Shown: piece by piece, positions 32,023 through 33,601 of the stretch | Layout of the letters: the number at the start of each line of letters is the position of its first letter | How positions within the stretch are numbered: position 1 is the stretch's first letter | Assembly: GCA_001794825.1 (NCBI GenBank) | Contig: MGLK01000016.1 | Location: forward strand, 56,238 to 120,237 | Source of the DNA: Caulobacterales bacterium RIFCSPHIGHO2_01_FULL_70_19 | Lineage (GTDB): Bacteria > Pseudomonadota > Alphaproteobacteria > Caulobacterales > Caulobacteraceae | Direction of reading: 5' to 3' | Length of the DNA: 64,000 nt | Translations under genes and position numbers: made by a program | The notes under the pieces: generated by a model | What the model was told of the DNA's origin: nothing | Databases searched by the model: none | Seen by the model: only the letters and a program-made list of their open reading frames with translations

Positions 32023-32235
32023 ATGTCCAATCTTCGACCCACAACCCTTGAACGCGCCTATGCGCTGGCGCGCGAGGGCCGCTGCCGCACCGTTTCCGAC
32101 ATCAAGCAGGCGCTCTCCTCCGAGGGCTACGACCGCATCCAGGACGCCCTCTACGGCCCCTCGCTGACGGCTGACCTGCGCAAGCTGTGCCAGCAGCACT
32201 ACGTTCCGCCCACGGGCGCACAGCCGGTGGACTGA
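32023..32235 (+). CDS. Small conserved hypothetical protein
   Basis: 70 residues, charged and helical: [52 protein letters not shown]. The layout resembles a small winged-helix or RecX-like helical bundle, but I do not recognise a named family. ATG 32023 follows CTTGGGG. No signal peptide or membrane segment. It lies between the TorF-like gene and the first cold-shock gene, all on the plus strand. Confidence 0.65.
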
Positions 32236-32279: not shown

Positions 32280-32399
32280 GTCGATCTCTCTGCGAAACGC
32301 CACCCCTCTGCTTTCGCCCGAGGTCCAGCCGCTCCCATTCAGACCCGACAGGCCGCAAGGGGCTGTTCCCTGCGGCCAACGCCAGAAGGAGGTCTGAAA
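32280..32399 (+). promoter_or_regulatory. Structured 5' leader of the first cold-shock gene
   Basis: About 120 nt directly upstream of the csp ATG align with the leader of the second csp gene (32736-32860). Shared blocks are GTCGATCTC.CTGCGAAACGC, CGAGGTCCA, TTCAGACCCGACAG and the ribosome-site region. A hairpin GGCCGC-A-AGGG-(6)-CCCT-GCGGCC (32351-32377) lies 6 nt before AGAAGGAGG. Its counterpart keeps the pairing with a G-C to A-U swap, which supports a selected RNA structure, likely thermoresponsive by analogy with cspA leaders. Confidence 0.6.
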
Positions 32400-32612
32400 A
32401 TGGCTACCGGCACCGTGAAATGGTTCAACTCCACCAAGGGCTACGGCTTCATCCAGCCGGATGACGGCGGCAAGGACGTCTTCGTCCACATCTCCGCCGT
32501 CGAAGGCGCGGGCCTGCGCGGCCTCGATGAAAACCAGAAGATCTCGTACGAGATCGAGCGCGATCGCCGTTCCGGCAAGGAATCGGCCGGTCAGCTGAAG
32601 GTCGAGGGCTAA
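32400..32612 (+). CDS. Cold-shock protein, CspA family (copy 1)
   Basis: A 70-residue single cold-shock domain: [36 protein letters not shown] with both RNA-binding motifs KGYGFI (RNP1) and VFVHI (RNP2). It binds single-stranded nucleic acid and melts RNA structure. The ATG at 32400 has AGAAGGAGG 8 bp upstream, an unusually strong site. Copy 2 at 32861-33073 is a close paralogue with a related leader, so the unit arose by tandem duplication of gene plus leader. Confidence 0.95.
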
Positions 32613-32650
32613 GGCCGCCTCGCCGGCTGCGGCCGGCGATGGAGAATCTG

Positions 32651-32683
32651 CGGCGGCGGGGCGAAAGCTTCCGCCGCCGTTTT
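32651..32683 (+). terminator. Terminator between the two cold-shock genes
   Basis: A 9-bp stem CGGCGGCGG/CCGCCGCCG with an 11-nt loop followed by TTTT, 38 bp after the copy 1 stop. It makes the two csp genes separate transcription units, each with its own leader. Confidence 0.75.
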
Positions 32684-32735
32684 CACATCTGAGGCGCCCC
32701 TTGCGCATCAGCCCTCGCGCCCCCATCTCCTTCTC

Positions 32736-32860
32736 GTCGATCTCACTGCGAAACGCTGCTGCCCTTTGCATCGCGCACGAGGTCCAAAGCCGATCCCTTC
32801 AGACCCGACAGACCGACCAGGGGATTCTCCCTGCGGTCAACGCTTACGGAGGTCCTGAAA
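32736..32860 (+). promoter_or_regulatory. Structured 5' leader of the second cold-shock gene
   Basis: Homologous to 32280-32399. The hairpin is GACCG (32811-32815)/CGGTC (32834-32838) with an inner AGGG-(GATTCT)-CCCT stem. Relative to leader 1 the second pair changes from G-C to A-U, and the AGGG/CCCT stem is identical while the loop differs. ACGGAGG lies 9 nt downstream of the hairpin. Confidence 0.6.
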
Positions 32861-33073
32861 ATGGCGACCGGCACTGTAAAATGGTACAATTCCACCAAGG
32901 GCTATGGCTTCATCGCCCCTGATGACGGCGGCAAGGACGTCTTCGTCCACGCCTCGGCGGTGGAAACGTCCGACCTGGGCATGCTCAGCGAAAACCAGAA
33001 GATCTCGTACGAAGTCGAACGCGACGCTCGTTCGGGCAAGGAATCGGCGGGCCGCCTGCGCACCGCCGACTGA
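32861..33073 (+). CDS. Cold-shock protein, CspA family (copy 2)
   Basis: A 70-residue cold-shock domain nearly identical to copy 1 in the first 30 residues ([32 protein letters not shown]) and diverged after residue 35 ([31 protein letters not shown]). RNP1 KGYGFI is kept; RNP2 is VFVHA. No terminator follows; an IF-1-like gene starts 4 nt after its stop, so the two are co-expressed from the cold-shock leader. Confidence 0.95.
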   Translation: MATGTVKWYNSTKGYGFIAPDDGGKDVFVHASAVETSDLGMLSENQKISYEVERDARSGKESAGRLRTAD

Positions 33074-33077
33074 TCCG

Positions 33078-33311
33078 ATGTCCGCCCCCGGTACAGTCCC
33101 CCCCGGCGACTCCCGCGCCATCGCCTTCGACGGCGAGATCGTGAGTCTGTTGCCGCTGGGGCTGCGCCGGGTGCGGCTCGACAACGGCCACGTCGTGACG
33201 GTCCTGCCGTCCTTCGGCCGGGCGACCGCCGTGCCCCTGGTGGGCGACCGGGTGGTCGTCGAGATCGCCTTCAATCAGCTGAAGGGCTGGCGCCTCGCGC
33301 GCCGGCCCTGA
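33078..33311 (+). CDS. IF-1-like S1/OB-fold protein in a cold-shock operon
   Basis: 77 residues. FDGEIVSLLPLGLRRVRLDNGHVVTVLPSFGRATAVPLVGDRVVVEIAFNQLKGWRLARR follows the pattern of translation initiation factor IF-1 (G.V...LPN...RV.LDNGH.V.......R....... GDRV.VE....L..GR...R) residue for residue in the strands, but lacks the IF-1 KMRKxxIRI segment. It is therefore a paralogue or S1-like RNA-binding protein rather than obviously the housekeeping infA. Translation is probably coupled to csp copy 2 (4-nt gap). Confidence 0.7.
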   Translation: MSAPGTVPPGDSRAIAFDGEIVSLLPLGLRRVRLDNGHVVTVLPSFGRATAVPLVGDRVVVEIAFNQLKGWRLARRP

Positions 33312-33337: not shown

Positions 33338-33601
33338 ATGACCCCCCTCGCCGAAATGGTGCCCGCGATGAGCGACGCCGACCTCAAGGCCCTGCGCGCC
33401 AACGCCGAACGGCTGTCCGGCGACGCCTCGACCGTCAAGGCCGGCGCCGCGTCGGAGATCATTCCGATCATCGACGCCGAGATCTCCCGTCGCGCCGCCC
33501 TCGCCCCCGCCGCCGCCCCCAAGAAGCGCGCGCCGGTGAAGAAGAAGGTCGTGCCGGTCACGGGCCATCAGACCGCCCTGCCGGCGAAGAGCGCCGCCTA
33601 G
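33338..33601 (+). CDS. Small Ala/Lys-rich conserved hypothetical protein
   Basis: 87 residues. A helical N-terminal part (LAEMVPAMSDADLKALRANAERLSGDASTVKAGAASEIIPIIDAEISRR) precedes a basic Pro/Ala/Lys tail (APKKRAPVKKKVVP), histone-like in composition, which may bind nucleic acid. I do not recognise a named family. It follows the IF-1-like gene by 26 nt and is probably the last gene of the cold-shock unit. Its TAG stop shares the tetranucleotide CTAG with the stop of the convergent JmjC gene. Confidence 0.7.
   Translation: MTPLAEMVPAMSDADLKALRANAERLSGDASTVKAGAASEIIPIIDAEISRRAALAPAAAPKKRAPVKKKVVPVTGHQTALPAKSAA

Follow-up and report, generated by a model that had tools for sequence, protein, structure and literature searches.

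The basic loop of IF-1 is inserted next to helix 44 and contacts 16S rRNA. Proteins of the CspA family are small OB-fold RNA-binding proteins, and not all csp genes are cold-induced. In B. subtilis, CspB/CspC can be replaced by E. coli IF1, a protein that also acts as an RNA chaperone and antiterminator (reviewed in PMC3017892). Csp-like action is not automatic for an IF-1, because overexpression of E. coli IF1 did not suppress a quadruple csp deletion, according to the passage of PMC9947658 that cites this experiment. In C. crescentus, the small genes beside cspB are strongly cold-induced (the cspB region, with CCNA_03888, CCNA_00703, and CCNA_00704; PMC8552747). The locus described here resembles that region in having a small basic gene in synteny with csp; in the C. 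crescentus region the csp is cold-induced, and the synteny extends over several genera of Alphaproteobacteria (PMC8552747).

Here we describe IF1L. Judged from its sequence, it is a derived paralogue of IF-1, and its place behind csp is one instance of a csp-IF1 arrangement that recurs; the open-access papers searched contained no description of it. Nor was a description found there of csp-infA pairs, of IF1 paralogues, or of infA2, our name for a second, C-terminally extended IF-1 of 88-94 aa with a complete basic loop.

The csp locus in the window

We use "the window" for the whole stretch of 64,000 nucleotides that was analyzed; its relevant features are listed in Table 1. The original prediction placed a 77-residue protein 4 nt behind csp copy 2, with no terminator in between. 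Translation of the open reading frame returned a protein of this length, and the TGA of csp2 is followed by TCCG and then by the ATG of IF1L. A terminator scan of the + strand, restricted to loops of 3-8 nt, was empty from csp2 to the end of orf4. The gap between IF1L and orf4 is 26 nt. No Shine-Dalgarno sequence is evident for the window copy of IF1L. Direct reading revealed a GC hairpin and T run after csp1 that resemble a terminator and that the scan did not flag. Because this hairpin separates csp1 from csp2, csp2 probably begins its own unit. A simple promoter/terminator scan returned one promoter-like site, which overlaps the csp2 start. We infer that csp2 and IF1L are co-transcribed on one mRNA. 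Orf4 is probably the third gene of this unit, since in relatives, too, it comes after csp and either IF1L or infA2.

Table 1. Features of the csp-IF1L locus; positions are those of the window.
Feature	Position	Strand	Remarks
70-aa protein 5' of csp1	32023-32235		weak, sub-threshold peptidoglycan-binding match
Leader of csp copy 1	32340-32399
csp copy 1, 70-aa cold-shock domain protein	32400-32612	+	Pfam CSD 83.6 bits
Terminator-like GC hairpin and T run	~32650-32685		direct reading
Leader of csp copy 2	32795-32860
Leader hairpin 5' of csp copy 2, GACC..GGTC enclosing an AGGG/CCCT stem	32811-32838	+	18 leaders aligned
csp copy 2 (csp2), 70-aa cold-shock domain protein, first gene of the unit	32861-33073	+	Pfam CSD 74.8 bits
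IF1L, 77-aa divergent IF-1 paralogue (putative derived infA2)	33078-33311	+	+1 frame relative to csp2
Segment LPSFGRATAVPL in place of the basic GKMRKNRIR loop of IF-1	33204-33239	+	alignment, K/R counts
orf4, 87-aa small basic protein, pI 9.99	33338-33601	+	weak RsiG-like match, 13.1 bits, below cut-off

Both csp copies, and those of relatives too, have a common conserved leader, in which AGCCGATCCC-TTCAGACCCGACAGG and a hairpin precede the Shine-Dalgarno sequence. Among the 18 aligned leaders, 5 of the 11 predicted pairs of the hairpin are changed on both sides; this is suggestive of compensatory pairing, with a covariation energy that is small. An Rfam search matched the cspA thermoregulator at the two csp genes below threshold only, and its remaining matches were at chance level. 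The gene for the 70-aa protein 5' of csp1 is kept beside csp in several Brevundimonas members. Orf4 is conserved near csp across Caulobacteraceae; in some genera its placement is divergent. In L099-L103, genomes of the same family, the search beside csp returned no IF1L, and for this reason CCNA_03888 may correspond to orf4 and not to IF1L; orf4 is possibly the CCNA_03888-type cold-induced gene of C. crescentus. A phage or plasmid origin of IF1L was rejected: there was no phage match, and the sole plasmid match was a canonical long IF-1 from Microvirga.

Relationship of IF1L to IF-1 and infA2

In a single-sequence phmmer search against the PDB, IF-1s ranked top for IF1L (E=2e-4). The TIGR00008 infA model matched at 23 bits (E=6e-5), below its curated cut-off of 61.15 bits, and the Pfam eIF-1a model (PF01176) at 16.4 bits, below its gathering score of 30.2. 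A profile of the 23-member IF1L subfamily alone matched P. aeruginosa IF-1 in the PDB at E=1.5e-9, and 22 of the 23 members matched PF01176, with E-values of up to 1. With these scores, the resemblance is more than chance. IF1L is a real IF-1 relative, but it does not qualify as an IF-1 under the curated thresholds.

Structure models were calculated from two alignments, one that included canonical IF-1 rows and one, as a control, of IF1L sequences only. The best match of the IF1L-only AlphaFold2 model (mean pLDDT 73.6) was 30S-bound E. coli IF-1, with a Z of 10.2 over 68 residues; the model that included the canonical rows also matched IF-1 best (Z 7.8). The fold predicted for IF1L is the OB fold of IF-1, and not an unrelated one. 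IF1L has the OB fold and the small size in common with the CspA family of RNA-binding proteins; however, it had no match to the CSD (PF00313) in the Pfam scan, and its pI is 11.5 (basic), whereas that of csp2 is 5.3 (acidic).

A single gene in the genome scores above the PF01176 threshold. It encodes a canonical IF-1 (MAKEELLEF...GKMRKNRIR...RITYRFK) and lies beside a maf-like gene, which we take to be maf from its sequence and neighborhood. This separate gene rules out IF1L as the genome's only infA and, since the true infA sits elsewhere, makes IF1L a paralogue. The claim that the protein is an IF-1 paralogue is thereby upheld, as it is by the profile homology and the predicted fold.

In other genera of the Caulobacteraceae, infA2 lies directly behind csp (L017, L018, L020-L023, L025, L027-L031), and in L018, L027, L029, and L114 an orf4 homologue follows, so the csp-IF1-orf4 order is the same with a canonical IF-1. 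Across a sample of Alphaproteobacteria, a csp was located shortly upstream on the same strand in 10 of 22 long infA2 loci versus none of 8 short canonical infA loci. A cold-specific, Csp-coupled protein of the initiation-factor or RNA-chaperone type had been put forward as new. The pairing with csp is not peculiar to IF1L, as canonical csp-infA2 pairs recur across Alphaproteobacteria. Many genomes of the Caulobacteraceae contain both the canonical infA and infA2. In some near-complete genomes, among them G011 and G017, only an infA2-type IF-1 was found (G011:C1:2479166-2479357 and G017:C1:1433333-1433524, both on the - strand), suggesting, as far as gene content goes, that infA2 can replace canonical infA.

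In an unrooted IF-1 tree, IF1L forms a single clade, attached to the infA2 side by a long branch (the E. coli IF-1 row of this tree matches the 1ah9 alignment in its core). Because the branches of this tree are very long, gene order is the stronger argument for an infA2 origin: like infA2, IF1L lies directly behind csp, with the orf4 homologue next in several genomes. IF1L is most simply interpreted as a derived infA2. It differs from infA2 in two respects: infA2 has the full basic loop and, beyond the barrel, a basic C-terminal extension of ~17-20 residues, and the alignment shows neither in IF1L.

The alignment and the K/R counts confirm that the KMRK segment is missing from IF1L, as had been claimed. 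The canonical loop follows the pattern G-K/R-M-R/K-K/R-N-R/K-I-R and contains 5 K/R residues in every csp-linked canonical IF-1 aligned, versus 0-3 in the IF1L subfamily, in which the loop region is mostly 2 residues shorter. The predicted strand pattern is likewise present: IF1L resembles IF-1 in size and in the barrel motifs RVxLxNxH and GDxVxVE (RVRLDNGH and GD.V.VE in IF1L). Toward the C-terminus, the YDLxKGRI of IF-1 is replaced by FNQLKGWRL, in which GWRL is invariant across the IF1L-only alignment.

One alternative, the original prediction in its strict form, is that IF1L still binds at the A site of the 30S subunit and tunes initiation, as a weak variant of IF-1 that is specific to cold or stress. 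The predicted fold and strand pattern would fit, as would the basic C-terminal KGWRLARRP and the residues invariant in the alignment of IF1L and infA2 (F17, G28, V32, L34, N36, H38, G56, and R72). However, no member of the IF1L subfamily retains the basic loop, and IF1L falls far short of both the TIGR00008 and the Pfam cut-off; we consider this reading unlikely.

Start codons, distribution, and selection

Judging by its named relatives, the window belongs to Brevundimonas. IF1L matches were found in 41 of 131 Brevundimonas genomes, a patchy distribution. The csp-IF1L pair is kept in 37 distinct Brevundimonas loci; in all 37, the csp2 orthologue is directly 5' of IF1L, and orf4 is usually next. 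In the window, IF1L starts with ATG, and in L003 and L054 with GTG. In 19 of the 37 csp-linked loci, no ATG, GTG, or TTG occurs between the csp stop and the core, which begins with IAFDG (L007, L009-L011, L013, L033, L036, L037, L039, L040, L042, L050, L051, L053, L058, L059, L083, L085, and L098). In 29 of the 37, IF1L is in the csp frame; the intervening csp stop is always TAG, and the linkers span 6, 8, 10, 18, or 23 codons. The core is conserved at the protein level behind the 6- and 8-codon linkers as well, which places the start of translation at or before the ATC codon of the core and not at a normal start. The infC start, AUU, is a regulated non-canonical start. In Streptomyces, sigR has a regulated non-canonical GTC start that is repressed by IF3 (PMC5472188).

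Readthrough of the csp UAG would account for the shared frame. IF1L in many relatives could be made as a Csp-IF1L fusion by such readthrough, with the window lineage since split into two coupled open reading frames; the 29 csp-frame loci contain no further stop before the core, and about half of them lack an ATG, GTG, or TTG there. However, IF1L is out of the csp frame in 8 of the 37 loci, on which grounds universal programmed readthrough was rejected. Five loci are both out of frame and start-less after the csp stop (L053, L058, L083, L085, and L098). In L083 and L085, the frame contains no canonical start at any point upstream, and an ATC overlaps the stop (TAATC); because of this, non-AUG starts must occur in these two loci. 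Linker substitutions by codon position numbered 10/21/23 in the largest group, a coding bias that is weak at best, and we set it aside as proof of readthrough. The fusion seems improbable to us. For the start-less loci as a whole, the sequences imply either non-AUG initiation or readthrough of the csp stop.

In genomes without IF1L, csp2 is followed by a GC hairpin and then by orf4 (L105-L108 and L110). The GC-rich hairpin at the place of IF1L in these loci is terminator-like. In L109 a C-terminal remnant of IF1L is left, and the copies in L014 and L093 are frameshifted. IF1L was thus lost or broken more than once, and its repeated absence or breakage indicates that it is dispensable. A few very divergent IF1L-like genes also stand alone, away from csp (L094:1180-1386, L095:1254-1430, L096:1254-1430, L097:1275-1493, and L015:1501-1689); most of these end in a GWRL-type motif.

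The patchy distribution, the remnant and frameshifts, and the many copies without a normal start codon could also mean that IF1L is an infA2 that no longer functions and is decaying toward loss. In contrast, substitutions in the IF1L core are strongly biased toward third positions, and the dN/dS of the core is 0.12-0.29 where IF1L is intact, including lineages without a normal start. Together these values indicate that the frame is translated and constrained; in the lineages that could be compared, intact IF1L is under purifying selection. With GWRL invariant besides, decay is quite unlikely. The reading that IF1L is an unrelated OB-fold protein of TOBE, S1, or MopII type that resembles IF-1 by convergence (MopII and tungbindin at Z 6.3-6.4 for the model with canonical IF-1 rows; weak TOBE or S1 matches of single members) is highly improbable and already largely refuted by the family-wide PF01176 matches, the subfamily profile match to IF-1, and the gene order that IF1L has in common with canonical infA2.

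Proposed role of IF1L

We propose that IF1L is a derived infA2 that kept the OB-fold barrel, lost the helix-44 loop, left the A-site job to infA, and became an RNA-binding or RNA-chaperone partner of Csp; we consider this reading about evenly balanced between right and wrong. The source would have been a second IF-1 gene, infA2, behind csp in the Brevundimonas lineage. The protein would have kept the barrel together with a nucleic-acid-facing surface (RVRLDNGH, GD.V.VE, and the basic C-terminal tail) and lost the basic loop, which in IF-1 reaches in beside helix 44 of 16S rRNA. With this loop, A-site function has probably gone from IF1L, and the canonical infA would do that job. Made from the same mRNA as Csp, IF1L would be paired with it as a small OB-fold protein that binds or chaperones RNA. 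Translation of the window copy is probably coupled to that of csp2 (stop-N4-ATG). The case for a Csp partner is indirect and builds on the fold, the loss of the ribosome loop, the fixed neighborhood, the published overlap between IF1 and Csp activities, and the cold induction of the CCNA genes, a possible counterpart of this locus; from these we infer the loss of A-site function, the chaperone role, and use in the cold.

More tentatively, and with considerable doubt, the start-less IF1L of part of Brevundimonas may be made from AUC or near-cognate codons, comparable to the AUU of infC, in which case its level would report how faithful initiation is. It may instead arise when the csp UAG is read through, which would yield a Csp-IF1L chaperone with two OB folds. 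Across all of these loci, what was once an initiation factor would have become, within the csp-IF1 module, a partner dedicated to Csp. The start-less loci provide a clean, testable case of bacterial non-AUG initiation or stop readthrough. IF-1 and Csp have a common fold and, in some tests, a common activity. The csp-infA2 pair, together with a lineage in which a loop-less IF-1 is still beside csp, amounts to a natural experiment on the ribosomal versus the chaperone role of IF-1.
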